Shown here: in pieces, positions 10,010 through 64,000 of the stretch
How positions within the stretch are numbered: position 1 is the first letter of the stretch
How the letters are laid out: the number at the start of each line of letters is the position of its first letter
Assembly (NCBI GenBank): GCA_032622095.1
Contig: CP136061.1
Span: 250,431,582-250,495,581, forward strand
DNA from: Siphonodentalium dalli
Lineage: Eukaryota > Mollusca > Scaphopoda > Gadilida > Siphonodentaliidae
Direction: 5' to 3'
DNA: 64,000 bases
The notes under the pieces: model-generated
Databases searched by the model: none
The model's input: only the letters and a program-made list of their open reading frames with translations
What the model was told of the DNA's origin: nothing
Position numbers and translations under genes: made by a program

Positions 10010-13000
10010 CTGCAAAAGTGAAAACAATTATAAATATTTACATAGCCCGTCTGTGTTACACTAAATCATGGTCGGCGATTGGTCAACTGCCAATTTGGCC
10101 ACCAGTTTTATATCCAAATAACACACAGACCCCCAATAACCCAAACAGCGTAACACGAACATGACATCACAAAGTGTTGACCTAATCACCAAAAAGCGGT
10201 CAGCAGAATAATTGTGAGCGCTTTTCAAAATTCAGCCGAATTGCATCCGAAGCCAGTTATTTATATCAATCACGTTATCATTGCTAAGTGCTTGAAAATC
10301 TAAAATAGGGCTAACCAAATGTGTTGAGTGGCCTAGTCTCAAATTCTTGGCAGATTTTGTGAAAATAAATAAGAATACATGCAGATTTTTTATGGGAACA
10401 AATCATCAAAATGCTATATAAATATAAGAAATGAATGTAGTGGGTGAGTGTGTGTTGATGGGGGATACGTTACTGTGGTCGTTCGGGGCACGGCACGTTC
10501 ACACAATATGCCACAATGCCGTTTCCCCCAATAACACACACCCCCTACATTCATTTCTTATACAATGCTTAACATATTTTGTTTATTAAATACTCATTTC
10601 CTAGTAGTTCCCTTAGGAAATATTCAGATAATAAGTTCAACATCCGTGTACATAATAATAATAATAATAATAATAACAAGTGCAACATAAAGCGTGGCAT
10701 ATGCCCCCCGAAGCTCAGTTTAGAGAGTGGGCAATACTAAATATCTGTTTGGATGGAGAATCTTTTTTATTTTATAAACCCAAGAAGTGGGTATCTTTTC
10801 CCATTAAACTGAGCTATCAATACACAAAGCACAACCAAATCCAATGATCCATGGCCATGTTACAAGCTGAAATGTTCATACGGCTACAAAATTAAGAAAT
10901 TCCCAAGTCAAACAAGGGCTTAAAAAATTTGAAGTCACACAAGGAAAGGAAACCTGTAGTAAATCGGTATGGCATCCTTTCCCTGAGCTGTGCTATCACC
11001 ATGCCAAAGGACAACCAAATCCGATAGTTAACACCTGAGTTAAAGTTAACCCTTTACCCAACAGAACGGCCCTGTGCCAATGCATTCTCTTATATATGCG
11101 AGTCGACCATAGGTCGCCTCGCATATATAAGAGAATGCATTGGCTTAACACATTAAAAATTATAAAATTGTTAAAGAATGTAAGAAAAAATGGTAAAAAG
11201 TGTTAAAAAAAGATTTCTTTTAGGCCAATGCATTCTCTTATATATGCGAGGCGACCTATGGTCGACTCGCATATATAAGAGAATGCATTGGCACAGGGCA
11301 TAACTGTAACTATCACAATATGGTCAAGGAGCCGGTTCCAATGATATCCATATTTGTATGGTTCTATTGAGACAGACCGAAGATATTTTAGGCTGTTGAA
11401 GCTTTATTTGGCCGGTTGTGGCCGGTTTGTTGGGTAAAGGGTTAAAGGTGATATGTTCAGACGGACAAAAAATTCACAAATTTCCAAGTCAAACTATGGC
11501 CGTAACTCTGGTAAATATTAATAGACGAAACCCGTAGTATGTGGGTATCATTTCCCACAACCTGTGCTATCACCATGCCAAAGGATAATAAAATCTGATG
11601 ATTAACACCTGACTTACAAGGTGATATGTTCAGACGGACACAAAATTCACAAATTTCCAAGTCAAACTATGGCCGTAACTCTGGTAAATATTAATAGACG
11701 AAACCCGTAGTATGTGGGTATCATTTCCCACAACCTGCGCTATCACCATGCCAAAGGATAATAAAATCTGACGATTAACACCTGACTTACAAGGTGATAT
11801 GTTCAGACGGACACAAAATTCACAAATTTCCAAGTCAAACAAGGGCCATAACTGGTAAATATTAACAGACGAAATCAGTATCATTTCCCACAACCTGTGC
11901 TATCACCATGTCAAAGGACCATAAAATCCGATGATTAACACCCGAGTTACAAGGTGATATGTTCGGACGGACAGTAAATTCAAAAATTTTCAATCAAACA
12001 TGGGCGGTAACTCTGGTAAAACTAAAACCGCATTCTACAGGTACCCATTCCAATATGTGGGACAATTATTACCCTGATAAGCCTTGAATACTCAGTTACC
12101 ATCTAATGCTCCCTGGGGACGGGGAGGTACAGCCACAATGTGGCTAGCATACGGACAATATCGTTCACTGCTCATAATCAGGTACCATTTTCAACGCATG
12201 TGTGGGGCGAAACAGTCACAGTATGAACGACCTTGCATAAGGGTCACAACTTGGCGCGAAATATGAACAGCGTACAATACGACAATTGCATGTCGATCAA
12301 TTCGGCCAAGCCACTGCTGTGTGAAACTCACATTAGACCAGTGGCAGGCTGTGAACTAACAAAGCACTAACCACAGAGCTTCACATATTGGTATTTCTTA
12401 CCTCTCCCTGATTTCTTTCCATCGATTCATGTGATTGAGCAGCAGGGTTTCAGGAGCAGGAGCAGTGTCGGGATCCTAAGAGAAGAGATATATTTTATTA
12501 TACGCTTACAATAGATTATTGAAAAAAATGCGGACAAATAATAATCATTATCCCACACCAGGCATTTTTTAAGCATGACAGGTTGAAAATGGACCCCGTC
12601 CCAATGGAAAATAGTCAGGTTCTTCTCCAATTTCCCAATTCACAGAAAGTAATGCCTTCTTTTTATGAATATATTTAAAGAAATATTATGGACTTGTTCG
12701 GGTGCGTGAAACTAATAAGTTAGTATTCAGGTGCTATGCCAACTGGAGGAATGTAGCATTCTACTAACATCGCCAAAAATCAACCGTACCACTCCATAGG
12801 AGACATCGTCTGAATTGTAAATTTATTTTTCGATTACAGTTGTAAAACTCTAATTTTCCCAATGGAAAGGGTCTGGAAGTCCGGGTCTGTATCCAAAAAC
12901 GGGTAGAAAAATCAGTGCATACTGTGAAGATATAGAAATGTTCACGTTCCCACTATCCATAAGCTATGTAAAGCAAAATCAGCTCACAAGAGTTAGCTAA

Positions 13001-16000: not shown

Positions 16001-19000
16001 TGCACAGTTTCAGGTAGGTGTCCCCTTTCAACATAACCAACACCATGCGACTATACACTGTCTAAATTAAGGCAAAACATACCACTGAATGGTTAGTGCA
16101 ATTATGTCATTCGATCAGTTGTGGTATTTGCTTAGCAACCGTTGCTACCCTTAAATGGGATATTTGGTTCACTATTCTGGTCGGGTATATCTCAAATTTC
16201 ACGTTAGAGTAGTACCTGCATCAAAAAACGCAATCACTGAGGTTGAATTACGACGCTATAAGCTATATTTACATTTTCCAGTCAATTCCGGGTAGTTGCC
16301 TAGCAACCGTTACCAAGGAGTTGCCGCGAGGCAAAGTCTCGCGATCTTATAATGATCGCTGATCCATGGGGGACAAACCTGTAAAGTTTCAGACCGGTGT
16401 CGCAATTTGAACATAATCAACACCATGCTACTAGAAACTATCTAATTTAAGCGGACATACCTCTGGGAGCCCCGGGTCAGGGTGTCGATCACTGTGGGGC
16501 GCCAGGGTTCAAAGGGTTAACACAGCATGCACATGCGCAGTTTGGCTTTTTGTATAATACGGACATAAACACTCATAGCAGTAATCACCTGTGCGTGAAC
16601 TTTCGCGCCTTTGGTTTCCCGCGCTTGTAAACGCTATTCATCTAGCCTTTTCAGATTGCCACCAGCGGTTGACAAAGGCAGTCGACCATCTGTCCAGTTT
16701 CAATACACATGTTATACTGGGATTTATTTATACACAAAAACAGGCCTTTATCACACAAAATAATGTAACTATTGCTTTTATTATTTACCCAATCTTATAA
16801 TGCCCCATTTTACAGTATTCCATTTAAATAATATTTGGAAGTAGTAAATTCTAGTGATATCTTTAATATATTTCCCATGTGATGCATTTCTGCATTTCTT
16901 TAATCAAGCTTTTAAAAGTTACTATTCACCTCAATCATCTAAATCCATATTAGATCTTCTTTAAATCCAAAGTGTCATGTAATCTCATTTTATAATTTAG
17001 TCTCTAAGCAAAGGTTGTGTGTTCTTTTAGATTCATTCATATCACTTAATGTCTGTTCAATTTTATATTTCAGGGCTCGGTTTATTCTTCATACGTGCAA
17101 TATGACCATATTACCATGGTTAGTCTACATATAAATGTATCTCAACGACAAGCAGTGTTCGTTGTTATTCGTGAAATAGACCCGCCCGAGATTCAAAGAT
17201 CACCACAGGGGAGTCCTATTTCACTTACACCATTGATGTCTAAGTTAAGTTGAGGCATACTTACACCATTGATGTCTAAGTTAAGTTGAGGCATACTTAC
17301 ACCATTGATGTCTAAGTTAAGTTGAGGCATACTTACACCATTGATGTCTAAGTTAAGTTGAGAGGTACTTACACCATTGATGTCTAAGTTAAGTTGAGGC
17401 ATACTTACACCATTGATGTCTAAGTTAAGTTGAGGCATACTTACACCATTGATGTCTAAGTTAAGTTGAGGCATACTTACACCATTGATGTCTAAGTTAA
17501 GTTGAGGCATACTTACACCATTGATGTCTATGTTAAGTTGAGGCATACTTACACCATTGATGTCTAAGTTAAGTTGAGGGGTACTTACAGCATTGATGTC
17601 TAAGTTAAGTTGAGGCATACTTACACCATTGATGTCTAAGTTAAGTTGAGGCATACTTACACCATTGATGTCTAAGTTAAGTTGAGGCATACTTACACCA
17701 TTGATGTCTAAGTTAAGTTGAGGCATACTTACACCATTGATGTCTAAGTTAAGTTGAGGGGTACTTACAGCATTGATGTCAAGAGGCTCGTCTGTTGTTG
17801 GTAGTATGTCTGGAATCCTATAGTCTGTTTCATCATGTGGATCGTGTTTTATCGGAGATGGAAGCTTGTATATATCAGGAAGTTTGTCTAGCTGTAATTA
17901 TTTATAGAGGATAACTAATGTCGAGCAAAAGCTCGGCTCGAATCAAATTTAGTGGACAAGGTTAATAAATAATAATAATAAATTTTGTACAGATTTGCGA
18001 CGAATTTGAGATACTTTTTATCATATGAAAGTGTCAATGACACTGTAGCTCAACTTGGAAAGGGAATAATTTAATGTATTACAGTCAATGGAGCGATTAG
18101 GAATGTGGAAAGTTGAATGTCTAATACTAGTTTATAGACATGAAGAGAAAAGTAAAATCCAAGATGGCTGCTGGCGGCCATGTTTTCGGCCGAATGACCC
18201 CAAAATGATTGTATCCCATCTACATGTCATCGTTAACATCCATGACAAATTTTATGACGATCAGACTAAAGGTACGACCTGTAGCCTATGCTAAAGAATT
18301 TAGTCATACAAAGAGTAAAATCCAAGATGGCTGCTGGCGGCCATGTTTTTTGGCCGAATGACACCAAAATGACTCGTTCCCATCTACATGTCATACAAAG
18401 AGTAAAATCCAATATTAACAACCATGACAAATTTCATGATGATCAGACGAACAGTACGACCTGTGGCCCATGCTAATGGATTAAATTTTGAAATCCAAGA
18501 TGGCCACTGGCGGCCATGTTTTTTGTCCGAATGACCCCAAAATGACTCGTTCCCATTTACATTCCAATTTCAACAGCCATGACAAATTTTATGATGATCA
18601 GACTAAATGTACGACCTGTAGCCCGTGCTAAAGGATTTAGTCATACAAAGAGTAAAATCAAAGATGGCTGCTGGCGGCCATGTTTTTCTGCCGAATGACC
18701 CCAAAATTACTCGTTCCCATTTACATTCCAATTTCAACAGCCATGACAAATTTTATGATGATCAGACTAAAGGTACGACCTGTAGCCCGTGCTAAAGGAT
18801 TTAGTCATACAAAGAGTAAAGTCAAAGATGGCTGCTGGCGGCCATGTTTTTCTGCCGAATGACCCCAAAATGACTCGTTCCCATCTACATGTCATTATTA
18901 ACATTCACGACAAATTTTATGATGATCAGACTAAAGGTACAACCTGTAGCCCGTGCTAAAGGATTTAGTCATACAAAGAGTAAAATCCAAGATGGCTGCT

Positions 19001-22000
19001 GGCGACCATGTTTTTTGGCCGAATGACCCCAAAATTACTCGTTCCCATCTACATGTCATTGTTAACATCCATGACAAATTTTATGATGATCAGACGAACA
19101 GTACGACCTGTGGCCCGTGCTAATGGATTAAATTTTGAAATCCAAGATGGCCACTGGTGGCCATGTTTATTGGCCGAATGACCCCAAAATTACTCGTTCC
19201 CATCTACATTCCAATTTCAACAGCCATGACAAATTTTATGATGATCAGACTAAAGGTACGGCCTGTAGCCCGTGCTAAAGGATTTAGTCATACAAAGAGT
19301 AAAATCCAAGATGGCGGCTGGCGGCCATGTTTTTTGGCCGATTGACCCCAAAATGACTCGTTCCCATCTACATGTCATTATTAACATTCTTGACAAATTT
19401 TATGATGATCAGACTAAAAGTAGGACCTGTAGCCCGTGCTAAAGGATTTAGTCATACAAAGAGTAAAATCCAAGATGGCTGCTGGCGGCCATGTTTTTTG
19501 GCCGAATGACCCCAAAATTACTCGTTCCCATCTACATGTCAATATTAACATCCATGACAAATTTGATGATGATCAGACTAAAGGTACGACCTGTAGCCCG
19601 TGCTAAAGAATTTAGTCATACAAAGAGTAAAATCCAAGAAGGCTGCTGGCCGCCATGTTATTTGGCCGAATGACCCCAAAATTACTCATTCCCATCTACA
19701 TGTCAATATTAACATCCATGACAAATTTCATGATGATCAGACGAACAGTACGACCTGTGGCCCGTGCTAATGGATTGAATTTTGAAATCCAAGATGGCCA
19801 CTGGCGGCCATGTTTTTTGTCCGAATGACCCCAAAATGACTCGTTCCCATCTACATTCCAATTTCAACAGCCATGACAAATTTTATGATGATCAGACTAA
19901 ATGTACGACCTGTAGCCCGTGCTAAAGGATTTAGTCATACAAAGAGTAAAATCAAAGATGGCTGCTGGCGGCCATGTTTTTCTGCCGAATGACCCCAAAA
20001 TTACTCGTTCCCATTTACATTCCAATTTCAACAGCCATGACAAATTTTATGATGATCAGACTAAAGGTACGACCTGTAGCCCGTGCTAAAGGATTTAGTC
20101 ATACAAAGAGTGAAATCAAAGATGCCTGCTGGCGGCCATGTTTTTTGGCCGAATGACCCCAAAATGACTCGTTCCCATCTACATGTCATTATTAACATTC
20201 TTGACAAATTTTATGATGATCAGACTAAAAGTACGACCTGTAGCCCGTGCTAAAGAATTTAGTCATACAAAGAGTAAAATCCAAGATGGCTGCTGGCGGC
20301 CATATTTTTGGGCCGAATGACCCCAAAATTACTCGTTCCCATCTACATGTCAATATTAACATCCATGACAAATTTCATGACGATCAGACAAACAGTACGC
20401 CCTGTAGCCCGTGCTAATGGATTGAATTTTGAAATGCAAGATGGCCACTGGCGGCCATGTTTTTTTTACCGAATGACCCCAAAATTAATCATTCTGGTCT
20501 AAATGTTGATGTCAACAGCTATGACAAATTTCATAATGATCCGACCAAAGGTACGACCTGTAGACTGCATTGTTGACGCCTTACGTACACACGTACACAC
20601 GGACGACAAAGCCATGGCAATAGCTCAAACTTTACAAAGTAAAGTTGAGCTAATAATCACACTTTAGCAAAGAAAACTGTCTCGTTATGGCCAGGTTTTA
20701 AAACAATTAATATTGAATTCATTATCACAACCAAAGAGGAAATAAAGACACCTTCAAGAAAAAATATAATTCCATTTTAAATATGTCTTTTCATGTTGAC
20801 AAAATTGTTCAACCACCCTTTAATATCATCCATGTTTATCTCATAACTAACACTAAATAACCCAACGCAAATTGAATATCATAATTATGTTCTAATTAAC
20901 ACTAAATAACCCCACAAATTGAATATCATAATTATGTTCTAATTAACACTAAATAACCCAACACAAATTGAGTATCATAATTATGTTCTAATTAACACTA
21001 AATAACCCAACACAAATTGAATATCATAATTATGTTCTAATTAACACTAAATAACCCAACACAAATTGAATATCATAATTATGTTCTAATTAACACTAAA
21101 TAACCCCACAAAATGAATATCATAATTATGTTCTAATTAACACTAAATAACCCCAACACAAATTGAGTATCATAATTATGTTCTAATTAACACTAAATAA
21201 CCCAACACAAATTGAGTATCATAATTATGTTCTAATTAACACTAAATAACCCAACACATATTGAATATCATAATTATGTTCTATTAACTAACACTAAATA
21301 ACCAAACGCAAATTGAATATCATAATTATGTACTAATTAACACTAAATAACCCCACAAATTGAATATCATAATTATGTTCTAATTAACACTAAATAACCC
21401 AACACAAATTGAATATCATAATTATGTTCTAATTAACACTAAATAACCCAACACAAATTGAGTATCATAATTATGTTCTAATTAACACTAAATAACCCAA
21501 CACAAATTGAGTATCATAATTATGTTCTAATTAACACTAAATAACCCAACACATATTGAATATCATAATTATGTTCTATTAACTAACACTAAATAACCAA
21601 ACGCAAATTGAATATCATAATTATGTACTAATTAACACTAAATAACCCAACACAAATTGAATATCATAATTATGTTCTAATTAACCTAATAATAGCATTG
21701 ATAAGCTCTTACGTCACTGCGCTAATTCCAACAAAAAGGGCCATAACTCTGGTGAAAATTGGCAGGTCGAACCCAAATTCAACCTGTATTTTGGGCTAGT
21801 AAACTCACATACCAAATTTAATTCCATTGAGTTCAGATTTTTACTAAAGTTATTATCCGGACAGAACAATAACATAATACATCCTGTTTTTTTTAAAGGA
21901 AGTATAAAAAGAGTATAAAAAGAGTATAAAAAGTTCAGAATTACCTTAAATATTTTACATTAATTAAGTGATGGTGTTTTGACTTACTTTGTCAAGTGAG

Positions 22001-25000
22001 TACTGATGTATTCAACACAAGCATTGTAGGAAATCAAGTTGCTTTCAATGATTGCATTTAACTTAAGCATTTTTCAATAAGGTAAAAATTCATTTGCAAA
22101 TGAAGCCTTTTGCTTTATAATTTACCTCATCGTCACTGTCGGCTTGCTTGCAGCTTTCGATGACTGGAGTCTTTGATCTCTGTGAGTCTTTAGAGTTAGG
22201 CTGGTTCCGCATCCATTCTCGACATATTGGGTACAGTGAGCTTGTCATATTAAACTGTGCCAGGTCCACACTACGATCAAATAGCTTCATTATGTATGTT
22301 TCTGTAAGAGGAGGCATATCAGAATGTAAATTGTAAGCAACCTACAGAGAACCAGATAGCAAACCCACCTGGCAAATTATTAACTTGCGAATATTTAAAT
22401 TGATTGTGGTAGGGCTGTGATGATATCCTTTGTCATCATAGGATACAAATCATGATACATAATCAACATCCGGCGCATATCCCCCCCCCCATGTGGCATA
22501 CCACCTAATGTGAAACTCAGGCAGACAGACCCAAAAAATCAGCATTATCAGATAAACAAATATGAATGACCCTAGAATGAAAAACGTGAGCAAACCGGTT
22601 GAACACCTCATAGTCGTGAAGATCTATAACAAATTTTATGAAGATCCGACAACTTATGGCTGAGATATTTGCTCAGAAGGATGAAAAAAAACCCAACATT
22701 TCCAGATAAACAAAGATGAATAACTCTTGAATGGAAAACAAACAAAACGATTGAACACTCCTTTGAATGTCCTCATAGTAGTGAACATCCATACCAAATT
22801 TCATTGAGATCCGACGACCGGTGGTGGCGATATCGGCTCAGACAGACAAAAAGTCAACATTTCCATATAAACAAAGTTTCATAACTCTAGAATGGAAAAC
22901 CCAAACAAAATGATTGAACACTCCATTGAATGTCAAATTTCAATGAGATCTGAGCACTACTGTTCAAGTTATGACCTGAACAGACATCATGCGGACATAC
23001 TGAACAGACCGATGGAAGCCCCAACAGATGGATGGAACCCATTCCTATTCCCCAGGGTGAAAAATTTTCAGGTGGGGGATAACAAGGGCCATAATTCTGA
23101 AATATGGTTCACAGAACAGATAATTACGGTTACATTCTCTAGGAGACTGCACAATCTCTGGTGTTTCTTCATCTCGTCTCTTCCGCTTTCTACTGTTTTT
23201 CGTCGATTCTCTGTTGCCAAAGAGCTGAATTTTTCTGGGAGATGACGCAGGGGATGACTCCCTGAAGTAATCAAATTTCATTTAACCCTTTACCCAACAG
23301 AACGGCCCTGTGCCAATGCATTCTCTTATATATGCGAGTCGACCATAGGTCGCCTCGCATATATAAGAGAATGCATTGGCTTAACACATTAAAAATTATA
23401 AAATTGTTAAAGAATGTAAGAAAAAATGGTAAAAAGTGTTAACAAAAAAATTTGTTTAGGCCAATGCATTCTCTTATATATGCGAGGCGACCTATGGTCG
23501 ACTCGCATATATAAGAGAATGCATTGGCACAGGGAATAACTGTAACTATCACAATGTGGTCAAGGAGCCGGTTCCAATGATATCCATATTTGTATGGTTC
23601 TATTGAGACAGACCGAAGATATTTTAGGCTGTTGAAGCTTTATTTGGCCGGTTTTGGCCGGTTTGTTGGGTAAAGGGTTAATGTACATCATATGATGCAC
23701 ACATGAGCTGTGCTCAATATTGCTCACAACTAGATAATTTAAAATTTATAAATCAATAAGCAAGCCTTTAAATAGTGTGAATTTAGTGACGCTACCTCAC
23801 ACAGCGGACTACATTAGCATTACAAAATTGACCCTCTGGGGACCTCATTCTGCTTAGGCTTCATCTTTATCTATATATTCTTAAATTATAGTATCTATAG
23901 TCTTAAATTAACATTGTTTTTAGTTACTTTTTCCCTTCTGTTCAATTTTGTATATCCCCTAATTTGCTGAAGATAAAATGCATAATTGTGGTGACTAATG
24001 GGTGAACAACACTAGGGAACTTCAATCCGATCCTAAATTTACCTTAGCAGTTGAGGCCTCAGCAGAATGAGGTCCCTCGAGGGTGAATTTGGTGATGCTA
24101 GCCCAATGTGTGGGATTATGTCACTAAATTCACTCTCTGAGAATCTCATTCCGCACATGACGGACACACTATTTCAAGGCTTGTGAATAAGGGCCGGAGC
24201 GATACTAATAAGTTGCCTCTGCAATTTCACTCTAATTCCACCTGTCACATTTAACCCTTCCATGACTGGAGCTTCCTGAAAGTTTGCGAACTTTGCCATA
24301 GCATTAATTTCTCTTATATATGCGAGTCGAGTCTAGCATATATAAGAGAATACATTGGCCTAAAATTTTGACCTTGACATTGTAAGCTAGTGCATTCTCT
24401 TATATATGCGAGGCTACCAAAGGGGGACTAGCATATAAGAGGATGCACTGGCACAGGATCTTTAATGCTGCACCAGCGTAGCTCCCATCATGAAAGGGTT
24501 AAATGTTAATTGTGTGCACTGAAAGTGTTAATATATAGTACACATATGAATAATTAAAGCGACTCATAATGTTCAGCGTCAGAGACAGATATTAATCGGT
24601 TCTAAACTTTCCGCCTAAATAAATCTTTATTGTTACATGATAAAAGCAAATAATTACTACACATGTCAGGGGGGGGGGGGGTCGGAATTTTTTTTCAGGC
24701 ATGTATGCTGATTTTTACCTTTTGACCCTTGTTGGGACCCAGTGACCCACCCACCCCCGCGTCCAAATTTTTTTCCGTTTTCGGCAGTTTTTTCCGACCA
24801 TTTTTGGACACCCAAACAGAGATTTGTAGGGGGAAATTTGGGGGGGGGGGGGACACTAAAACAGAGATTTGCGGGGGAAATTCACTGTAAACAGCTGTAT
24901 ATGAATGTCTGTGCATACAATTTGTCATGGATGTTAACATTGACATGTAAATAGGAATGAGTCATTTTGGGGTCATTCAGCCAAAAAAACACATGGCTGC

Positions 25001-28000
25001 CAGTGGCCATCTTGGATTTCAAAATTTGCAACAAAATACAACACGATAACTGCCTGCAGTCAGTTTATCAGTTAGAATTACATTATTTCTCTTATTCTAA
25101 GGTGTTTTAAGCCAAACTCATTGCAAAAACAGTCAAAAAACTTGCAGGAAATATTTTTTTGAGTTGCGGAAAAAATTGTTTGTTGGTCCCATCGATCATC
25201 CACCCACCCGGCATACGTGCCCAGCACATGTAGGTTTAATTTGAGGCCTGAGTATTAAGGAGTCGCTTTGAACAACATTGTCAATAATGTTTGTCAAGTT
25301 TATTAATATGGTATGTTTTTCATTTGAAAAGTTAATTATATATTTTTATTACACTCATATGCGCGATTTCCATTGAAAACGCTGTTAATTAAAAATGGTA
25401 ATGTCACTAGTGAATTATTTCATTTCCTGTGACGTCATTGATGTTACGTCGCTTACTGATCTAAACTGAATTTTCGATAGTTGATCTTTCTCCACATCGG
25501 GAATTTCATGCATTAATGCTGTGTGTTTTATTCATATTTGGCGAAACAAATTGATGCAGAAGTGTAATAAATAGAGTAATCAATAAGTTCCGAGAATTAT
25601 GTTAAATAATTCACTCGAGGCGAAGATATTTAGGTAAGAAACTTGTGCGTTAACGCGCACTCGTTTCTTACCGACGTCTCTCACCTCTCGTGAATTATTT
25701 AACATAATTCTCGGAACCAATTGATTACTCTCTATATGTTACACAAGTCCTTACCTGCTTATTATATCAACAGCATCGGAGAGACTATCTATAGTATACA
25801 CAGGTCTGAAAATAGAAATACAAGGGAGAGACTATCTATAGTATACACAGGTCTGAAAATAGAAATACATCAGAGAGCCTATCTATAGTATACACAGGCT
25901 TGAAAATAGAAATACATCAGAGAGCCTATCTATAGTATACACAGGCCTGAAAATAGAAATACATCGGAGAGACTATCTATAGTATACACAGGTCTGAAAA
26001 TAGAAATACAATGGAGAGACTATCTATAGTATACACAGGCCTGAAAATAGAAATACATTAGAGAGACTATCTATAGTATACACAGGCTTGAAAATAGAAA
26101 TACATCGGAGAGACTATCTATAGTATACACAGGCCTGAAAATAGAAATACATCGGAGAGACTATCTATAGTATACACAGGCCTGAAAATAGAAATACATC
26201 GGAGAGACTATCAATAGTATACACAGGCCTGAAAATAGAAATACAAGGGAGAGACTATCTATAGTATACACAGGTCTGAAAATAGAAATACATCAGAGAG
26301 ACTATCAATAGTATACACAGGTCTGAAAATAGAAATACAAGGGAGAGACTATCTATAGTATACACAGGTCTGAAAATAGAAATACAAGGGAGAGACTATC
26401 TATAGTATACACAGGTCTGAAAATAGAAATACAAGGGAGAGACTATCTATAGTATACACAGGTCTGAAAATAGAAATACAAGGGAGAGACTATCTATAGT
26501 ATACACAGGTCTGAAAATAGAAATACAAGGGAGAGACTATCTATAGTATACACAGGTCTGAAAATAGAAATACATCAGAGAGACTATCAATAGTATACAC
26601 AGGTCTGAAAATAGAAATACAAGGGAGAGACTATCTATAGTATACACAGGTCTGAAAATAGAAATACAAGGGAGAGACTATCTATAGTATACACAGGTCT
26701 GAAAATAGAAATACAAGGGAGAGACTATCTATAGTATACACAGGTCTGAAAATAGAAATACATCAGAGAGCCTATCTATAGTATACACAGGCCTGAAAAT
26801 AGAAATACATCGGAGAGACTATCTATAGTATACACAGGTCTGAAAATAGAAATACAAGGGAGAGACTATCTATAGTATACACAGGTCTGAAAATAGAAAT
26901 ACAAGGGAGAGACTATCTATAGTATACACAGGTCTGAAAATAGAAATACAAGGGAGAGACTATCTATAGTATACACAGGTCTGAAAATAGAAATACATCA
27001 GAGAGCCTATCTATAGTATACACAGGCCTGAAAATAGAAATACAAGGGAGAGACTATCTATAGTATACACAGGTCTGAAAATAGAAATACAAGGGAGAGA
27101 CTATCTATAGTATACACAGGTCTGAAAATAGAAATACAAGGGAGAGACTATCTATAGTATACACAGGTCTGAAAATAGAAATACATCAGAGAGCCTATCT
27201 ATAGTATACACAGGCCTGAAAATAGAAATACATCGGAGAGACTATCTATAGTATACACAGGTCTGAAAATAGAAATACAAGGGAGAGACTATCTATAGTA
27301 TACACAGGTCTGAAAATAGAAATACAAGGGAGAGACTATCTATAGTATACACAGGTCTGAAAATAGAAATACAAGGGAGAGACTATCTATAGTATACACA
27401 GGTCTGAAAATAGAAATACATCAGAGAGCCTATCTATAGTATACACAGGCCTGAAAATAGAAATACAAGGGAGAGACTATCTATAGTATACACAGGTCTG
27501 AAAATAGAAATACAAGGGAGAGACTATCTATAGTATACACAGGTCTGAAAATAGAAATACAAGGGAGAGACTATCTATAGTATACACAGGTCTGAAAATA
27601 GAAATACAAGGGAGAGACTATCTATAGTATACACAGGTCTGAAAATAGAAATACAAGGGAGAGACTATCTATAGTATACACAGGTCTGAAAATAGAAATA
27701 CATCAGAGAGCCTATCTATAGTATACACAGGCCTGAAAATAGAAATACATCGGAGAGACTATCTATAGTATACACAGGTCTGAAAATAGAAATACAAGGG
27801 AGAGACTATCTATAGTATACACAGGTCTGAAAATAGAAATACATCAGAGAGCCTATCTATAGTATACACAGGCCTGAAAATAGAAATACATCGGAGAGAC
27901 TATCTATAGTATACACAGGTCTGAAAATAGAAATACAATGGAGAGACTATCTATAGTATACACAGGCCTGAAAATAGAAATACATTAGAGAGACTATCTA

Positions 28001-29761
28001 TAGTATACACAGGTCTGAGAATAGAAATAGAAAATCCCATTGTATCTTCAGCCATACTTAAAGTAATTGATCACCTCTAACGTGGTGTCACCCCGGAAAT
28101 ACCAAAGTGTCAAACTGCGGTAACCTCCAACACTGCAATGAGGAAGTAGCCTGTGCAAGCTGATAATGCATGAATTCTGTCAACGTTGCTACACACCAAT
28201 CAAGATCAAAGGGAATCATGCGACATCAAATAAAACACGTTACCTTAGCTCCACTGCAGTGACCGATTCAATACTGCGGTGGATGCCATAAACAACCGGT
28301 AATGCCATGGTCATTACCGGGGTATCACCCTCATTTTCAGGTCAATTACTTTGAGGATAGCCGAAACGGTGGTGTTTGGAAATCTTTCAATGATACGACT
28401 ATGATAATCAGGGATTCATCAACCATGAAGGAAAGACAGACTTTGACATCGCTATCAATGCCACACAAAATTGGGTCAATCAAATGTTTTAAATTTTCCA
28501 TACGTCATGCTAAAAAAATAGGTTGGTTAATACACTGTTACACCCTGTCGAAGCACATGGATTGTTCTTGCCAAATTCACAAAGGCCATCTGTATATACA
28601 CATGTAATCTAGATGTCATAAATTTACATTCAAATTTGACGGAATAATCTTAAGCAAATTGAACCTGTTGGCATACGTATTATTGAGATGGCATAATATA
28701 TAGATACCGGTACCAATGTTAGTACAATGCTAAAAAAATAAAATATCAACTGCATGGTGCTATTTATTCAATGTACATTTTTAGGCTGTTAATTACTCTA
28801 GCGGTAAAATTTTAGGTTTAATACTAAGTTCGGTGGTTATATATGTGATAGGCTGATGCATCGCATTATTTTTGTAGAATCTGACAAATTAATGAAAGCA
28901 GATTGGACTTAATAATAAATGATCTGAACAGTTACTCACGCGTCATCTTTCTTCTCCCTCAAATTCTGTAATGTGGCACCCAGTCTACTTCGGGCTGTGA
29001 CTACTTCAGTGTGATTATTAATACCTGGATGATATTAAAACATGCAGTGTGATTATTAATACCTGGATGATATTAAAACATGCAAGCATGAGTCTTTGTA
29101 CACACGGTATGTATGTGTTATATAGAGTATCATAACAACAGAATAAATGGATGAAATAACTTATGCCATAATAAAAATATGGTTTGTTTGCAGTCACCCG
29201 ACCTGCTGGCAAGAAAGTCAATTTTTTAAATCTATTATCTGATTCTCAAAATAAGTGTCCATTTTAACGCAGTTGTTGTGTTTATTACATATTGAAGGTA
29301 GGCCTGCAGTGTGACAGTGTTGATGTTTAACACAGACCGCATTGAAGATTAACGTATCGTGTTAAATTTGTAATCCAACACGGTTGTGTAATGTCAGGGC
29401 TGAATTGTCTATTTTGTAGCATATAGTTAAATTTAGTTCTATTTACATTCGCATCCGAATAATTCAGTGTTATTATTACACTGTAACAACAGGGTTCACG
29501 ATGGGAAAAGTTATGGTTTTTCATATAAAGTTAACAGGGCACTGATCTGCAATTCATATTTTTGCTACAATGTCGTCTTTTGAAGTTATTATTAAATTTA
29601 GGTAGAAGGCTGTTCTGCATCTGTAGTCTTGTGGGCAATATATTATAATACCGGTACAATCTAGCAAGTTGATGAAGATGGCTCCTCCTACCAGCTTGTC
29701 TTCTATACTGATTGACAGCATTGTCAATTTGGAATGTGGGTTTGAAATGGTCAATCTCCAT
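9916..29761 (-). CDS. LIN37: LIN37, MuvB/DREAM complex subunit (whole gene, 8 exons)
   Basis: LIN37 is a subunit of the MuvB core (with LIN9, LIN52, LIN54 and RBBP4) that represses cell-cycle genes as part of DREAM. Exons on the - strand are 29692-29761 (tentative), 28940-29024, 25755-25805, 23128-23261, 22126-22301, 17769-17891, 12402-12475 and 9916-10009. All junctions are GT-AG and every phase agrees (1, 2, 2, 1, 0, 0, 2), giving 268 residues against about 246 in human. Recognised blocks in order are [13 protein letters not shown] (about 34-46), the basic RKRKRRDEE stretch (about 93-101), [16 protein letters not shown] (115-130), [11 protein letters not shown] (136-146, the CRAW motif with E for A), DIYKLPSP (about 178-185), and RWKEIRE with [13 protein letters not shown] near the end. 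Introns hold large repeats and transposons. Two exons are bordered by satellites made of copies of their own splice junctions. Confidence 0.92.
10423..10563. repeat. 140-bp foldback element
   Basis: The arms ATAAGAAATGAATGTAG...GTGTGTTGATGGGGGA and their complement (CCCCCAATAACACACACCCC then CTACATTCATTTCTTAT) surround a loop of about 50 bp. It lies in the last LIN37 intron. A simple ATA-repeat microsatellite lies shortly after, at 10651-10676. Confidence 0.8.
10651..10676. repeat. (ATA)n microsatellite
   Basis: About eight ATA triplets in the last LIN37 intron. Confidence 0.9.
10690..12040. repeat. Degenerate ~175-bp tandem repeat in the last LIN37 intron
   Basis: The unit contains CACAAATTTCCAAGTCAAAC, GCCGTAACTCTGGTAAATAT, TATCATTTCCCACAACCTG and TGCTATCACCATGCCAAAGG. 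The best copies start near 11450, 11620 and 11795, and worn copies lie at 10850-11040 and 11940-12040. A piggyBac-like MITE at 11046-11445 interrupts the array. Open frames at 11457-11893 (-) repeat the same peptide and are not genes. Confidence 0.85.
11046..11445. mobile_element. piggyBac-like MITE, family D copy 1 (392 bp)
   Basis: TTAA (11046-11049), then CCCTTTACCCAACAGAACGG; the right end is TTTGTTGGGTAAAGGG, then TTAA (11442-11445). Between are two large palindromic cassettes of the form TGCCAATGCATTCTCTTATA...TATAAGAGAATGCATTGGC. TTAA duplication with CCCTTT ends is typical of piggyBac-superfamily insertion. It interrupts the ~175-bp tandem repeat, so it is younger than that array. Copy 2 at 23286-23677 has exactly the same length. 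Confidence 0.88.
12402..12475 (-). CDS. LIN37: LIN37 exon 7
   Basis: The acceptor is ATCTCTTCTCTTAG and the donor AG|GTAAGA. It reads [20 protein letters not shown] then EIRE plus two nt (AG). It starts in phase 0, matching exon 6, and corresponds to the human stretch with S-T-L-I-Y-R-N-M-Q-R-W-K. 74 nt. Downstream is an intron of about 2.4 kb filled with tandem repeat and family D. Confidence 0.9.
12476..13825. other. LIN37 intron 7, no further feature
   Basis: The first part of this intron holds no recognisable element apart from ATTCGATTCAAATTCG words at about 13195-13265 that resemble the subterminal parts of the hAT copy at 1248-2890. Open frames 13016-13210 and 13144-13473 are low-complexity and AT-rich. 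Confidence 0.4.
13826..14262. mobile_element. Family F MITE copy 1 (433 bp, TA flanks)
   Basis: TA then TGTGACCCGCCATATCAAAT at the left, and the complement ending GGCGGGTCACA then TA at the right. Long inverted ends (about 45 bp) are followed on each side by the same TATATATGCGAG palindromic cassette found in families A and D. The centre has a unique core (CAGAGCCCCAGACAAACATG ... GTGGGGCTCCCTGC) that can itself pair. Copies 2 and 3 are at 46258-46691 and 50553-51048. Confidence 0.85.
14378..14560. repeat. Dispersed repeat with GCCATAACTCTGGTGAAAA signature
   Basis: Contains AATGGCCATAACTCTGGTGA, CCCACATACTAAATTTCATT and GGACAGACGAATGGACAGAC. The same arrangement occurs at 21700-21890 and in reverse within 40050-40200. 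The open frame 14366-14608 (+) comes from this repeat. The type is common in mollusc genomes as I recall; this copy has no visible ends. Confidence 0.6.
14758..14823. repeat. Orphan copies of the LIN37 36-bp donor repeat
   Basis: Almost two units of the array at 17223-17768 (TTAAGTTGAGGCATACTTAC, ACCATTGATGTC), 2.4 kb away in the same intron. On the - strand it carries another GTAAGTATGCC donor-like site. It lies just outside the piggyBac-like element at 14957-16516. Confidence 0.85.
14953..16520. mobile_element. piggyBac-like element, family E (1560 bp)
   Basis: TTAA (14953-14956), then CCCTTTGAACCCGTAACACC; the right end is GCGCCAGGGTTCAAAGGG, then TTAA (16517-16520). The interior has no transposase frame. 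It contains two diverged internal duplications: about 15060-15400 against 15430-15780 (both with TATATTTAAATTG and ATATGCGCATG), and about 15800-16080 against 16180-16470 (both with GGGTAGTTGCCTAG, AACCG and TATAAGCTA). It lies in the intron after LIN37 exon 6. Confidence 0.8.
16521..17222. other. LIN37 intron 6, no other feature
   Basis: About 700 bases between the family E element and the donor-repeat array. AT-rich. The open frame 16591-16800 (+) has no recognisable domain. Confidence 0.4.
17223..17768 (-). repeat. 36-bp array of LIN37 exon-6 donor junctions (15 extra copies)
   Basis: Sixteen GTAAGT sites lie exactly 36 bp apart on the - strand (ACTTAC on + at 17223, 17259 ... 17763). The last, at 17763-17768, is the authentic exon 6 donor. 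Each unit is 12 nt equivalent to the exon end (GACATCAATGGT; GCT in the exon itself) plus 24 nt of intron start (GTAAGTATGCCTCAACTTAA and TTA less one overlap). Thirty-six is a multiple of three, so the exon frame stays open through all units, with peptide unit [12 protein letters not shown], to a stop near 17193. The variant unit with GGGGTACTTACAGC recurs 180 bp (five units) apart, showing block duplication. I do not treat it as a separate gene. Confidence 0.93.
17769..17891 (-). CDS. LIN37: LIN37 exon 6
   Basis: The acceptor is ATAAATAATTACAG and the donor GCT|GTAAGT. 123 nt, phase 0 at both ends, reading [20 protein letters not shown] then [20 protein letters not shown] and A. The DIYKLPSP block matches DVYKLPPP in human LIN37. 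Its last 12 nt and donor are the seed of the 36-bp array that follows. Use of any downstream donor of that array would add multiples of 12 residues without shifting frame. Confidence 0.9.
18028..20654 (+). mobile_element. Pearl/Helitron-like element (family B) with 15 core monomers
   Basis: The 5' part is GTGTCAATGACACTGTAGCT and the 3' end is a hairpin (AACTTTACAAAGTAAAGTT) followed by GAGCTAA. The core has about 15 monomers of about 161 bp in two types: type a with AGGATTTAGTCATACAAAGA and type b with GGATTAAATTTTGAAATCC. Type b recurs at 18477, 19124, 19769 and 20413, so the core is organised in ~645-bp blocks of b-a-a-a. Shared words are AAGATGGCTGCTGGCGGCCA and GACCCCAAAATNACTCG. The many short + frames in this span are repeat artefacts. 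It lies in the intron between LIN37 exons 5 and 6. Confidence 0.85.
20845..21686. repeat. 49-bp satellite, about 17 copies
   Basis: The unit contains CTAATTAACACTAAATAACC, CAACACAAATTG and AATATCATAATTATGTT. Variant units (CGCAAATTG, CCCCACAAATTG, ACATATTG) recur in the same order, indicating larger block duplications. It lies in LIN37 intron 5 and is not adjacent to an exon. Confidence 0.9.
21700..21940. repeat. Dispersed repeat and a triple TATAAAAAGAG run
   Basis: The first part is another copy of the GCCATAACTCTGGTGAAAA repeat (compare 14378-14560). At 21900-21932 AGTATAAAAAG occurs three times in tandem with a 12-13-bp spacing. Confidence 0.6.
22126..22301 (-). CDS. LIN37: LIN37 exon 5 (core LIN9-binding/CRAW region)
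   Basis: The acceptor is GCCTCCTCTTACAG and the donor GAG|GTAAAT. It starts with two nt of a split codon and ends in phase 0. It reads [52 protein letters not shown] and ADSDDE. Human LIN37 has the same [16 protein letters not shown] and L-Y-P-I-C-R-A-W-M-R-N core, named CRAW, which contacts LIN9. Here it reads CREW. This is the strongest evidence for the gene call. The + frame 22148-22336 is a shadow. Confidence 0.95.
22490..23040. repeat. ~165-bp degenerate tandem repeat in LIN37 intron 4
   Basis: Three diverged copies share AACATTTCCAGATAAACAAA, GAATGGAAAAC, GATTGAACACTCC and AAATTTNATNGAGATCCGAC blocks, with CAGACAGAC words between them. A short poly-C tract is at about 22480-22490. No gene. 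Confidence 0.7.
23128..23261 (-). CDS. LIN37: LIN37 exon 4 (basic region)
   Basis: The acceptor is TTTGATTACTTCAG and the donor ACC|GTAATT. 134 nt with one leading nt (completing Arg with exon 3) and one trailing nt. It reads [32 protein letters not shown] and [12 protein letters not shown]. The basic RKRKRR stretch corresponds to QRRKKRR in human LIN37 and may be a nuclear localisation signal. An alternative donor nine nt upstream is rejected because the junction codon would become a stop. Confidence 0.85.
23282..23681. mobile_element. piggyBac-like MITE, family D copy 2 (392 bp)
   Basis: Flanked by TTAA at 23282-23285 and 23678-23681, with ends CCCTTTACCCAAC and GTTGGGTAAAGGG. It has the same length and near-identical sequence as copy 1 (11050-11441), with two TATATATGCGAG palindromic cassettes. 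It inserted about 20 bp upstream of the exon 4 acceptor, in the intron. Confidence 0.88.
23760..24186. mobile_element. Family L double-hairpin MITE, copy 1
   Basis: Ends AGCAAGCCT...AAATAGTGTG and CACACTATTTCAAGGCTTG. Near each end a hairpin pairs GAGGTCCCNNGAGGGTGAAT with its complement across a GCTAGCCC-type loop. The left hairpin is partly deleted. The better preserved copy is at 49023-49482. In LIN37 intron 3. Confidence 0.7.
24251..24502. mobile_element. piggyBac-like MITE, family A copy 2 (244 bp, intact)
   Basis: TTAA, CCCTTCCATGACTGGAGCTT ... GCTCCCATCATGAAAGGG, TTAA. It carries two hairpins around CTTATATATGCGAG, the same cassette type as in families D and F but more diverged. It is the reference for the split copy at 4825-7145. 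Confidence 0.85.
24660..25030 (-). repeat. G-rich tracts and a truncated family B monomer
   Basis: Poly-G runs at 24669-24680 and 24840-24852 with a related G-rich segment between them. From about 24915 to 25030 the complement of one family B core monomer is present (GAAATCCAAGATGGCCACTG, GACCCCAAAATGACTCATTC). Open frames here are artefacts of these tracts. Confidence 0.7.
25570..25736. repeat. 165-bp foldback element next to LIN37 exon 3
   Basis: The arms ATAGAGTAATCAATAAGTTC...GAGAATTATGTTAAATAATT and their complement enclose a loop of about 50 bp containing a second short palindrome (GTGCGTTAACGCGCAC). It starts 18 bp downstream of the exon 3 donor. Confidence 0.8.
25755..25805 (-). CDS. 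LIN37: LIN37 exon 3 (short, at the edge of a satellite)
   Basis: The acceptor is TATTTCTATTTTCAG and the donor CAG|GTAAGG. 51 nt reading [16 protein letters not shown] with one leading and two trailing nt. Phases fit exon 2 (ends GC, giving Ala) and exon 4 (AG|G, Arg). I do not recognise this peptide from vertebrate LIN37, so the assignment rests on splice sites, phase and position. Its first 33 nt with the acceptor form the 47-bp satellite unit upstream. Confidence 0.75.
25774..28031 (-). repeat. 47-bp array of LIN37 exon-3 acceptor junctions (48 copies)
   Basis: GTATAC, present once per unit, falls at 25794 and again every 47 bp to 28003: exactly 47 intervals, so 48 units without a net indel. 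On the - strand each unit is ATTTCTATTTTCAG followed by about 33 nt of exon 3 start (ACCTGTGTATACTATAGATA, GTCTCTC ...). The unit nearest the gene's 3' side is the real acceptor of exon 3. Variants AGGGAGAGACT, TCGGAGAGACT and TCAGAGAGCCT recur every four to six units, a higher-order pattern. At least two units have CAAG for CAGN at the junction. Confidence 0.93.
28032..28939. other. LIN37 intron 2, remaining part
   Basis: No element recognised. A short palindrome (CCGGTAATGCCATGGTCATT) is at about 28298-28320. The + frame 28302-28607 has no domain or splice context. Confidence 0.4.
28940..29024 (-). CDS. LIN37: LIN37 exon 2 (N-terminal helix)
   Basis: The donor is GAC GC|GTGAGT and the acceptor TTTTAATATCATCCAG. 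85 nt read [20 protein letters not shown] then LREKKDDA, with two nt on either side. Human LIN37 has M-A-K-A-R-N-Q-L-D-A-V-L-Q-C-L at the same place. The 38 bp around its acceptor are duplicated (29007-29044 and 29045-29082), giving two candidate 3' splice sites, of which the proximal one keeps the frame with the tentative exon 1. Confidence 0.85.
29007..29082 (-). repeat. 38-bp tandem duplication of the exon 2 acceptor
   Basis: Two identical copies of a 38-bp unit: on the - strand 20 nt of intron end (CATGTTTTAATATCATCCAG) plus 18 nt of exon start (GTATTAATAATCACACTG). A third case in this gene of a unit spanning a splice junction. Confidence 0.9.
29237..29480. repeat. Possible MITE related to 32450-32745
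   Basis: Contains ATTCTCAAAATAAGTGTCC at 29241-29259, whose complement ends the segment near 32745. Both carry several GACCGCATTGAARATTA-like words. The other end is not resolved. Confidence 0.4.
29692..29761 (-). CDS. LIN37: LIN37 exon 1, tentative start codon
   Basis: An ATG at 29761 with an in-frame TAA six nt upstream and a purine at -3 opens [20 protein letters not shown] then RQA plus one nt, ending at CTG|GTAGGA. The phase (1) fits exon 2 and the junction codon would be Gly. No similarity to vertebrate LIN37 N-termini is certain, and the donor is not strong. An alternative is a start codon elsewhere in 29083-31250. Confidence 0.45.
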
Positions 29762-35289: not shown

Positions 35290-35580
35290 CTCCTCTCGTA
35301 ATGTCATGACCAGGGATGACACTACGCTTGGCACACCGTCGGATCGGGAGCCGACGCTAATGGCTGTCCTGTGTGCAACAATGTGCGCACGTTAAAGATC
35401 CCTACCGTGGCAAAGAAGTCACGAGTTAGGCAAAAACTTCCTGGAAAAATTATGGATCTACTCGATCCGTCCTGTAAAAGCCAGCCTGGGTCACTAGGAC
35501 GTAACAACTACAGATACAGAAATGTTGGGTCGGTAAAATCTAGGATAGAACGGGCTGATCATCGTTCGGGCCCGTGCTAC
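35290..35580. repeat. GC-richer segment, probable SINE or LINE tail
   Basis: Contains GTGCGCACGTTAAAGATCCC, a word I associate with dispersed repeats of marine invertebrates, and is richer in CG than its surroundings. Frames on both strands (35322-35507, 35371-35706) have no domain. No ends seen. Confidence 0.35.
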
Positions 35581-55185: not shown

Positions 55186-55189
55186 AATA

Positions 55190-57358
55190 GATGGAAGCAT
55201 ATTAGTACTGCTCTGCACTTACAGATGGAATTATACAGTATTAGTACTGCCGTGTACTTACAGATGGAATCACATTAGTACTACTTTGTACTTATGGATG
55301 GAATCATATTAGTACTGCTTTGTACTTTCATATGGAATCATATTAGTATTTATGTGTACTTACAGATGGAATCATATTAGTACTGCCGTGTACTTACAGA
55401 TGGAATCACATTAGTACTTCTGTGTACGTACAGATGGAATCATATTAGTACTGCCATGTACTTTCATATGGAATCATATTAGTATTTATGTGTACTTACA
55501 GATGGAATCATATTAGTACTGCTTTGTACTTACAGATGGAATCATATTAGTACTTCTGTGTACGTACAGATGGAATCATATTAGTATTTATGTGTACTTA
55601 CAGATGGAATCATATTAGTACTGCTTTGTACTTACAGATGGAATCATATTAGTACTTCTGTGTACGTACAGATGGAATCATATTAGTACTGCTTTGTACT
55701 TACGGATGGAATCACATTAGTACTACTTTGTACTTACGGATGGAATCACATTAGTACTACTTTGAACTTATGGATGGAATCATATTAGTACTGCTTTGTA
55801 CTTATGGATGGAATCATATTAGTACTACTTTGTACTTACGGATGGAATCACATTAGTACTACTTTGAACTTATGGATGGAATCACATTAGTACTACTTTG
55901 TACTTACGGATGGAATCACATTAGTACTACTTTGAACTTATGGATGGAATCACATTAGTACTACTTTGTACTTACGGATGGAATCACATTAGTACTACTT
56001 TGAACTTATGGATGGAATCACATTAGTACTACTTTGTACTTACGGATGGAATCACATTAGTACTACTTTGAACTTATGGATGGAATCATATTAGTACTGC
56101 TTTGTACTTATGGATGGAATCATATTAGTACTACTTTGTACTTATGGATGGAATCATATTAGTACTGCTTTGTACTTATGGATGGAATCATATTAGTACT
56201 GCTGTGTACTTAGATGGAATCACATTAGTACTACTTTGTACTTACGGATGGAATCACATTAGTACTACTTTGTACTTACGGATGGAATCATATTAGTACT
56301 GCTTTGTACTTATGGATGGAATCATATTAGTACTGCTGTGTACTTAGATGGAATCACATTAGTACTACTTTGTACTTACGGATGGAATCACATTAGTACT
56401 TCTGTGTACTTACAGATGGAATCATATTAGTACTGCTGTGTACTTACAGATGGAATCACATTAGTACTTCTGTGTACTTACATATGGAATCATATTAGTA
56501 CTTCTGTGTACTTACAGATGGAATCATATTAGTACTTCTGTGTACTTACAGATGGAATCACATTAGTACTGCTGTGTACTTACAGATGGAATCATATTAG
56601 TACTGCCGTGTACTTACAGATGGAATCACATTAGTACTACTTTGTACTTACAGATGGAATCATATTAGTACTGCTTTGTACTTATGGATGGAATCATATT
56701 AGTACTGCTTTGTACTTATGGATGGAATCATATTAGTACTGCTTTGTACTTATGGATGGAATCATATTAGTACTGCTGTGTACTTAGATGGAATCACATT
56801 AGTACTACTTTGTACTTACGGATGGAATCACATTAGTACTACTTTGTACTTACGGATGGAATCATATTAGTACTGCTTTGTACTTATGGATAGAATCATA
56901 TTAGTACTGCTGTGTACTTAGATGGAATCACATTAGTACTACTTTGTACTTACGGATGGAATCACATTAGTACTTCTGTGTACTTACAGATGGAATCATA
57001 TTAGTACTGCTGTGTACTTACAGATGGAATCACATTAGTACTTCTGTGTACTTACATATGGAATCATATTAGTACTTCTGTGTACTTACAGATGGAATCA
57101 TATTAGTACTTCTGTGTACTTACAGATGGAATCACATTAGTACTGCTGTGTACTTACAGATGGAATCATATTAGTACTGCCGTGTACTTACAGATGGAAT
57201 CACATTAGTACTACTTTGTACTTACAGATGGAATCATATTAGTACTGCTTTGTACTTATGGATGGAATCATATTAGTACTGCTTTGTACTTATGGATGGA
57301 ATCATATTAGTACTGCTTTGTACTTATGGATGGAATCATATTAGTACTGCTGTGTACT
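55190..57358. repeat. 34-bp satellite, about 63 copies
   Basis: The unit is GATGGAATCATATTAGTACT followed by GCTTTGTACTTACA or variants (TACGG, TATGG, TTAG). A block of about 574 bp is duplicated: the rare short unit (ACTTAGATGG) recurs at 56211 and 56785, and at 56345 and 56919. On the - strand many units read CCATCTGTAAGTAC, a good donor consensus, but no exon borders the array. Confidence 0.92.
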
Positions 57359-57805
57359 TTCCTGGGAGAGTTCTATTGAGGAGTTAATTTTATAACTGTT
57401 GTGGGTGAGTTGAACAGCTTGAAGTGAAGTTGGAAGGGACCCAAGGCTTTCTAAGTCAGTATGTGTGAAATAAGATTAATTATATAAAAGTCTGTATTAT
57501 GTCAAAATAAAAAAATTAATAAGAAAAATTTAATTTTAAGCCAACCCTAATTTTTTATGACTTGTAACTCCAACAAGATACCTAATTTTCTTGAACCCAA
57601 GAATCATAGGATGTAACAGAACAAAGAACACTGGTAAATACCAGTACATTACCAGTACATTACCAGTACACATGAAAAGGTCAACTGGAGGTTGGCTTAC
57701 TGTCAGTATATGTACAGGTATCATCAAATAAAATATGGCATCAACTACAATATAGATTGACTTTGTTCTAATTTTCATTATAAATTATCAGTTATGGTGT
57801 TTCCC

Positions 57806-61528: not shown

Positions 61529-64000
61529 TAAATTTACGCTGTGACGTCACCATACTCATAACTCATGATGTTTACGCTGTGACGTAACCATACTCATAAC
61601 TCATGATGTTTACGCTGTGACGTAACCATACTCATAACTCATGATGTTTACGCTGTGACGTAACCATACTCATAACTCATGATGTTTAATTTACGCTGTG
61701 ACGTAACCATACTCATAACTCATGATGTTTACGCTGTGACGTAACCATACTCATAACTCATGATGTTTACGCTGTGACGTAACCATACTCATAACTCATG
61801 ATGTTTACGCTGTGACGTAACCATACTCATAACTCATGATGTTTACGCTGTGATGTCACCGTACTCATAACTCATGATGTTTAATTTACGCTGTGACGTA
61901 ACCATACTCATAACTCATGATGTTTACGCTGTGACGTAACCATACTCATAACTCATGATGTTTACGCTGTGACGTAACCATACTCATAACTCATGATGTT
62001 TAATTTACGCCGTGACGTAACCATACTCATAACTCATGATGTTTAATTTACGCCGTGACGTAACCATACTCATAACTCATGATGTTTAATTTACGCCGTG
62101 ACGTAACCATACTCATAACTCATGATGTTTACGCTGTGACGTAACCATACTCATAACTCATGATGTTTACACTGTGACGTAACCATACTCATAACTCATG
62201 ATGTTTACGCTGTGACGTAACCATACTCATAACTCATGATGTTTACGCTGTGATGTCACCGTACTCATAACTCATGATGTTTAATTTACGCTGTGACGTA
62301 ACCATACTCATAACTCATGATGTTTACGCTGTGACGTAACCATACTCGTAACTCATGATGTTTACGCTGTGACGTAACCATACTCATAACTCATGATGTT
62401 TAATTTACGCCGTGACGTAACCATACTCATAACTCATGATGTTTAATTTACGCCGTGACGTAACCATACTCATAACTCATGATGTTTAATTTACGCTGTG
62501 ACGTAACCATACTCATAACTCATGATGTTTACGCTGTGACGTAACCATACTCATAACTCATGATGTTTACGCTGTGACGTAACCATACTCATAACTCATG
62601 ATGTTTACGCTGTGACGTAACCATACTCATAACTCATGATGTTTACGCTGTGATGTCACCGTACTCATAACTCATGATGTTTAATTTACACTGTGACGTA
62701 ACCATACTCATAACTCATGATGTTTACGCTGTGACGTAACCATACTCATAACTCATGATGTTTACGCTGTGACGTAACCATACTCATAACTCATGATGTT
62801 TAATTTACGCCGTGACGTAACCATACTCATAACTCATGATGTTTAATTTACGCCGTGACGTAACCATACTCATAACTCATGATGTTTAATTTACGCCGTG
62901 ACGTAACCATACTCATAACTCATGATGTTTAATTTACGCTGTGACGTAACCATACTCATAACTCATGATGTTTAATTTACGCTGTGACGTAACCATACTC
63001 ATAACTCATGATGTTTAATTTACGCTGTGACGTAACCATACTCATAACTCATGATGTTTAATTTACGCTGTGACGTAACCATACTCATAACTCATGATGT
63101 TTAATTTACGCTGTGACGTAACCATACTCATAACTCATGATGTTTAATTTACGCTGTGACGTAACCATACTCATAACTCATGATGTTTAATTTACGCTGT
63201 GACGTAACCATACTCATAACTCACGATGTTTAATTTACGCTGTGACGTAACCATACTCATAACTCATGATGTTTAATTTACGCTGTGACGTAACCATACT
63301 CATAACTCATGATGTTTAATTTACGCTGTGACGTAACCATACTCATAACTCACGATGTTTAATTTACGCTGTGACGTAACCATACTCATAACTCACGATG
63401 TTTAATTTACGCTGTGACGTAACCATACTCATAACTCATGATGTTTAATTTACGCCGTGATGTAACCATACTCATAACTCATGATGTTTAATTTACGCCG
63501 TGATGTAACCATACTCATAACTCATGATGTTTAATTTACGCCGTGACGTAACCATACTCATAACTCATGATGTTTAATTTACGCTGTGACGTAACCATAC
63601 TCATAACTCATGATGTTTACGCTGTGACGTAACCATACTCATAACTCATGATGTTTAATTTACGCCGTGACGTAACCATACTCATAACTCATGATGTTTA
63701 ATTTACGCCGTGACGTAACCATACTCATAACTCATGATGTTTAATTTACGCTGTGACGTAACCATACTCATAACTCATGATGTTTAATTTACGCTGTGAC
63801 GTAACCATACTCATAACTCATGATGTTTAATTTACGCTGTGACGTAACCATACTCATAACTCATGATGTTTAATTTACGCTGTGACGTAACCATACTCAT
63901 AACTCATGATGTTTAATTTACGCTGTGACGTAACCATACTCATAACTCACGATGTTTAATTTACGCTGTGACGTAACCATACTCATAACTCATGATGTTT
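61529..64000. repeat. 43/38-bp satellite with CRE-like core, about 60 copies, runs off the window
   Basis: Units alternate between GTTTAATTTACGCTGTGACG (43 bp) and a short form GTTTACGCTGTGACG (38 bp), both followed by TAACCATACTCATAACTCA and TGAT. Each has TGACGTAA, one base off the CREB/ATF palindrome TGACGTCA, and a few have TGATGTCA or TGACGTCA. Variants (CGCCGTGAC, CTCACGATG, CACCGTACTC) recur in blocks. The boundary to the right is not seen. Confidence 0.93.

Follow-up and report, generated by a model that had tools for sequence, protein, structure and literature searches.

At the LIN37 gene of Siphonodentalium dalli, a 47-bp sequence from the border between an intron and the following exon is repeated 48 times in tandem, which raises two questions: whether the array grew from the gene's own exon boundary, and which of its many acceptors would be used. 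We addressed both in a stretch of 64,000 nucleotides on contig CP136061.1, here called the window.

The gene was identified by a profile search with PF15306 (LIN37) across the whole 2.23-Gb, nine-contig genome. It gave a single match (E 7e-18; 75.5 bits versus a cut-off of 27), which lies inside the window and comes from exon 5. A search with the protein derived from the exons returned 224 proteins at E ≤ 0.001, with molluscs near the top and a Gigantopelta protein as the closest LIN37 among the matches listed (46% identity). PF15306 is present in all of the best 120 of these 224 homologues, and the assignment to LIN37 made in a preliminary description of the locus is borne out on both counts. 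Exons 2–7 could be placed on the minus strand, each with AG and GT borders as predicted, under a numbering that presumes one exon upstream of exon 2:

28940..29024, minus strand: LIN37 exon 2 (predicted), donor GTGAGT
25773..28028, minus strand: exon 3 acceptor array, 48 units of 47 bp, each with 14 nt of intron end and 33 nt following
25755..25805, minus strand: LIN37 exon 3 (predicted), 51 nt, 16 residues plus split codons, starting in unit 48
23128..23261, minus strand: LIN37 exon 4 (predicted), donor GTAATT
22126..22301, minus strand: LIN37 exon 5 (predicted), with a conserved 15-residue peptide
17769..17891, minus strand: LIN37 exon 6, ending LDINA, with the first donor of a further array at 17768
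12402..12475, minus strand: LIN37 exon 7 (predicted), with a 24-residue peptide

The end of exon 2 at 28940 and the start of exon 4 at 23261, both proposed earlier, agree with this map. GTAATT was taken as the exon 4 donor because GTAACC, 6 nt before it, creates a stop codon at the exon junction and was rejected. Motif scans for exon 1 found nothing convincing (one candidate per scan, at 35307 and 54878), and no last exon was found downstream of exon 7. Several inverted repeats (ATTCTCTTATATATGCGAG...CTCGCATATATAAGAGAAT) were seen by eye at 23320–23530 and about 24290–24450.

The exon 3 array is strictly regular. All 47 spacings between its units equal 47 bp (first base 28028, last base 25773), TRF reports a period of 47 bp with 47.9 copies and 0% indels, and the array, shifted by 47 positions, matches itself at 0.951, a value that in none of 200 single-base shuffles exceeds 0.330. 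Nine of the 47 positions in the unit are variable and 11 unit types occur, the commonest of which (ATTTCTATTTTCAG followed by 33 nt) makes up 25 of the 48 units. The acceptor site reads CAG in 46 units and CAAG in two (units 42 and 46); unit 1 reads TTCTCAG. Only from unit 48 do the full 51-nt exon 3 and its donor continue, with TTTTCAG before the exon and GTAAGG after it. The earlier account of 48 exactly spaced units, each carrying the intron end and about 33 nt of exon 3, therefore stands, as does its view of exon 3 as the last unit plus its donor, for the exon as predicted here. The unit types run GDCBACB...IDCBJAK, with a D-C-B block common to both ends and mainly type A in the middle, an order that minisatellite turnover would be expected to leave. 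The copy number given here is that of the assembly; an assembly artefact is nevertheless extremely improbable, given 11 unit types in non-periodic order and flanks that are continuous with the LIN37 gene.

A 94-nt array query returned at least 35 matches in the genome, all within the exon 3 array, in a search that scores the best candidates only and skips very common words; further copies elsewhere appear unlikely. Genome-wide there are 319 occurrences of the bare 14-mer at the acceptor site, as is usual for a short word. This genome is rich in tandem arrays (in 20 regions of 10 kb sampled on contig 1, TRF found 17 merged arrays with at least 3 copies, 7 of them with at least 10), and a pre-existing satellite might have been inserted here and later captured as exon 3. 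We consider such a capture very unlikely, as no second copy is among the matches listed for the 94-nt query and unit 48 is followed directly by unique sequence with which the reading frame is completed.

An origin of the array in place is well supported. Our preferred reading, which we hold to be probable, is an in-place minisatellite expansion in which the last acceptor is mostly used and upstream choices are unproductive. A 47-bp segment made up of the last bases of intron 2 and the first of exon 3 would have been duplicated in tandem where it stood and have grown to 48 copies; the extra copies would all lie on the intron side, so that exon 3 would remain intact together with its donor and the acceptor adjoining it, and such arrays would be tolerated because this exon-adjacent boundary survives. 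In most productive transcripts the array would be removed as intron with the last acceptor in use, probably chosen by pairing across the short exon 3 with the GTAAGG donor. Splicing to any of the 47 upstream acceptors would add a part of the array that contains a stop codon, and the transcript should then be unproductive. The acceptor usage, the direction of expansion and the decay of mis-spliced transcripts are what we infer.

This reading presupposes that exon 3 is spliced in. The array could instead be an ordinary intronic minisatellite with acceptor-like units, exon 3 not being real and exon 2 joining exon 4. Because exon 3 is 51 nt long, such a junction keeps the frame, and a skipping transcript would consequently bear on inclusion and not on productivity. 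The exon 3 peptide shows no conservation among LIN37 homologues, and the branch-point context of unit 48 is weak. A longer measure of the linker gives 74 residues with exon 3 and 57 without, and the latter falls within the 52–78 found in homologues, a range taken from the 45 of the best 120 that match the motifs and less decisive than the shorter measure. On that shorter measure, the linker between two conserved LIN37 blocks has 50 residues with exon 3 and 33 without it (50 minus 17), which is below the 41–54 of the 12 homologues chosen for alignment. Exon 3 also lies between an acceptor and a GTAAGG donor that are in the correct phase, and the sister arrays described below sit on exons supported by homology. 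From phase, splice signals and length we infer that exon 3 is included, and we consider the intronic reading unlikely.

The preliminary description had held that upstream acceptors would shift the frame, 47 not being a multiple of three. This does not apply to 15 of the 47, which preserve the overall frame (exon length a multiple of three), so the barrier is not a matter of frame alone; the penalty itself stands by way of stop codons, to which all 47 upstream acceptors lead before exon 4. Branch points were scanned in all 48 units as yTnAy with the A 15–50 nt before the AG. The motif is present in 13 units, including unit 47, with the A 17–29 nt before the AG. In unit 48 the scan finds no yTnAy, and no TnA lies 15–47 nt before its AG. 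For unit 1 there is a near match, CTGAA, located 33 nt upstream of the AG in unique intron sequence outside the array. On this simple measure the scan points to other acceptors and away from the last one, and if the last is used all the same, something other than site strength must decide. Earlier work by Reed and Maniatis on duplicated sites points the same way, since it reportedly found the proximal site to be preferred. RNA folding of 244 nt from the last array units indicated no special structure (z-score −1.25, with an equally good fold in 29 of 200 shuffles).

The same observations could be given a functional turn, in which some transcripts use upstream acceptors and are degraded, so that array length sets the LIN37 dose. 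The intact CAG in 46 of 48 units, the stop codon in every upstream choice and the better branch-point match of some upstream units than of the last would all suit such an attenuator. Recent homogenisation, however, accounts for intact copies without selection, and the donor choices at an array on LIN37 exon 6 are all open (16 of 16), so that the two arrays have no common logic; we consider an attenuator unlikely. That exon 6 array is one of several further repeats on splice sites in and near the gene:

17223..17780, minus strand: 36-bp array at LIN37 exon 6 with 16 GTAAGT donors (17768 to 17228, step 36), an open reading frame throughout
29007..29084, minus strand: doubled exon 2 acceptor, a 38-bp repeat in 2.1 copies
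L011:2507-4719, about 12.5 kb to the right of the window: phosphatase exon and donor array, 48 GTAAGT in all

Three LIN37 boundaries therefore carry tandem repeats: the acceptors of exons 2 and 3 and the donor of exon 6. At exon 2, the upstream copy of the acceptor would add 38 nt and yields a stop. Exon 6 ends in LDINA followed by GTAAGT, the donor array beginning at LDINA|DPD. The donor nearest the exon is probably ancestral, because several aligned homologues run LDI-x-A-DPD without an insert. As the 36-bp step is divisible by three and the unit is free of stops, all the exon 6 donors are in frame, and each further unit would add a 12-residue repeat. LIN37 intron 5 also holds a 164-bp array (18410–20563) and a 49-bp array (20844–21689), the unit of the latter without a consensus donor.

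The phosphatase exon belongs to a neighbouring gene that we take to be PTPDC1-like. It reads QDYGVGALSTILDMVHVMQFGISEGKVAIHCHAGLG and ends at a donor, where the first GTAAGT of the array closes the exon end EGKVAIHCHAGLG; the array then proceeds in steps of 47 or 29 bp. A later exon starts after ttacag and completes GRTGVLIASYLV in matching phase. The joined two-exon peptide matches PF00782 (E 8.1e-13), and the first exon alone stays below every Pfam cut-off. Both this array and that of exon 6 look like the same process as at exon 3, acting on donors, and the ancestral boundary is clearer in them, since their exon ends find a counterpart in homologues or in a known domain.

Two other arrays were noted. 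A 34-bp array of about 64 copies lies at 55189–57359 (GTAAGTAC on the minus strand), in whose flanks no exon was recognised by eye. A 43-bp array, about 5.5 kb long, crosses the end of the window, from position 61531 to L010:3036.

To place these arrays in context, TRF was applied to 104 kb around LIN37, where it found 16 merged arrays with at least 3 copies, 8 of them with at least 10. Counting a single repeat unit for each array, 0.69% of this local DNA and 0.33% of the DNA sampled on contig 1 are covered. For the 16 placed splice sites (12 of LIN37, four of the phosphatase), about 0.11 array hits were expected from the local coverage and three, with at least 10 copies each, were seen. Without the exon 3 array from which the analysis started, two stand against about 0.10 expected (Poisson about 0.005, computed after the fact and with a local density that includes these very arrays). 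The donor motif GTRAGT was tagged in 4 of 18 local array rows, two of which are one array, and, in the 20 sampled regions, in none of 24 rows. A regular expression for acceptors tagged none of 42 array rows but missed the LIN37 array itself, and is uninformative on acceptors. The clustering of arrays on LIN37 and its neighbour is unusual.

A general bias of arrays towards splice sites is not supported, because donor-like arrays are in no excess over the reversed motif: genome-wide, three successive units of the pattern AGGTAAGT gave 2198 unit matches, versus 2104 for the reversed control, a comparison that pools arrays inside and outside genes and has low power to detect an effect restricted to genes. 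Among the places listed in the first 84.8 Mb of contig 1, at least 8 donor-like clusters were counted by eye, versus at least 9 or 10 in the control. It would be a bold extension, to which we give little credence, that in this lineage the splice sites of transcribed genes seed minisatellites far above chance, with long arrays of near-identical sites attenuating splicing according to their copy number or, where donors are concerned, generating in-frame repeats.

The closest known structures are the "mirages" of amphioxus, minisatellites made of exon–intron boundaries (PMC3087553), which, in the parts of the sources available, are described for Adh3, the globins BflGb6 and BflGb9, troponin C and PGBD5 (PMC3087553, PMC3902484). 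The LIN37 exon 3 array is likewise a tandem minisatellite whose unit spans a boundary and whose units carry splice signals, the boundary being given by the continuity of unit 48 with an exon 3 that is predicted to be spliced in. As far as the available text describes the mirages, the LIN37 arrays resemble them in being tandem boundary-spanning duplications, at acceptors or donors, with splice signals in many units. They differ from them, within the same compass, in lineage, in affecting three boundaries of one gene, in the stop that follows every one of the 47 upstream choices at exon 3, and in copy number, with 48 units at exon 3 versus 6 and 3 in two BflGb6 haplotypes. Splicing and instability were examined in amphioxus, whereas the LIN37 array is known from one assembled sequence; there, evidence from Adh3 and RT-PCR of globins is reported to suggest that splicing is normal in spite of the mirages (PMC3087553, in its available portion).

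Two other systems share parts of this arrangement, as far as the accessible portions of their sources go. The human IFI6 (6-16) minisatellite supplies multiple splice donors in one gene (Turri et al. 1995, via PMC4526556), much as the exon 6 array does; unlike the exon 3 array, it offers donors and not acceptors, with two downstream repeat units acting as donors (PMC4526556). Intron gain through tandem genomic duplication (PMC4974935) also involves a tandem duplication inside a gene that bears on splicing, but there a new intron is formed, instead of a long array at an existing boundary.

Among the papers listed by a literature search there was no mirage in a mollusc, which is weak evidence of absence, subscription papers being mostly outside its reach. 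The exon 3 array is a known kind of structure, a boundary minisatellite, in a new lineage, and on the available account of the amphioxus globin cases it extends the mirage from amphioxus to a mollusc at a larger scale. With acceptors repeated at one LIN37 exon and donors at another and in the neighbouring gene, the locus offers a natural test of how the spliceosome chooses among dozens of near-identical sites. If LIN37 is spliced normally, site strength alone is not the rule, and exon definition or position must decide.
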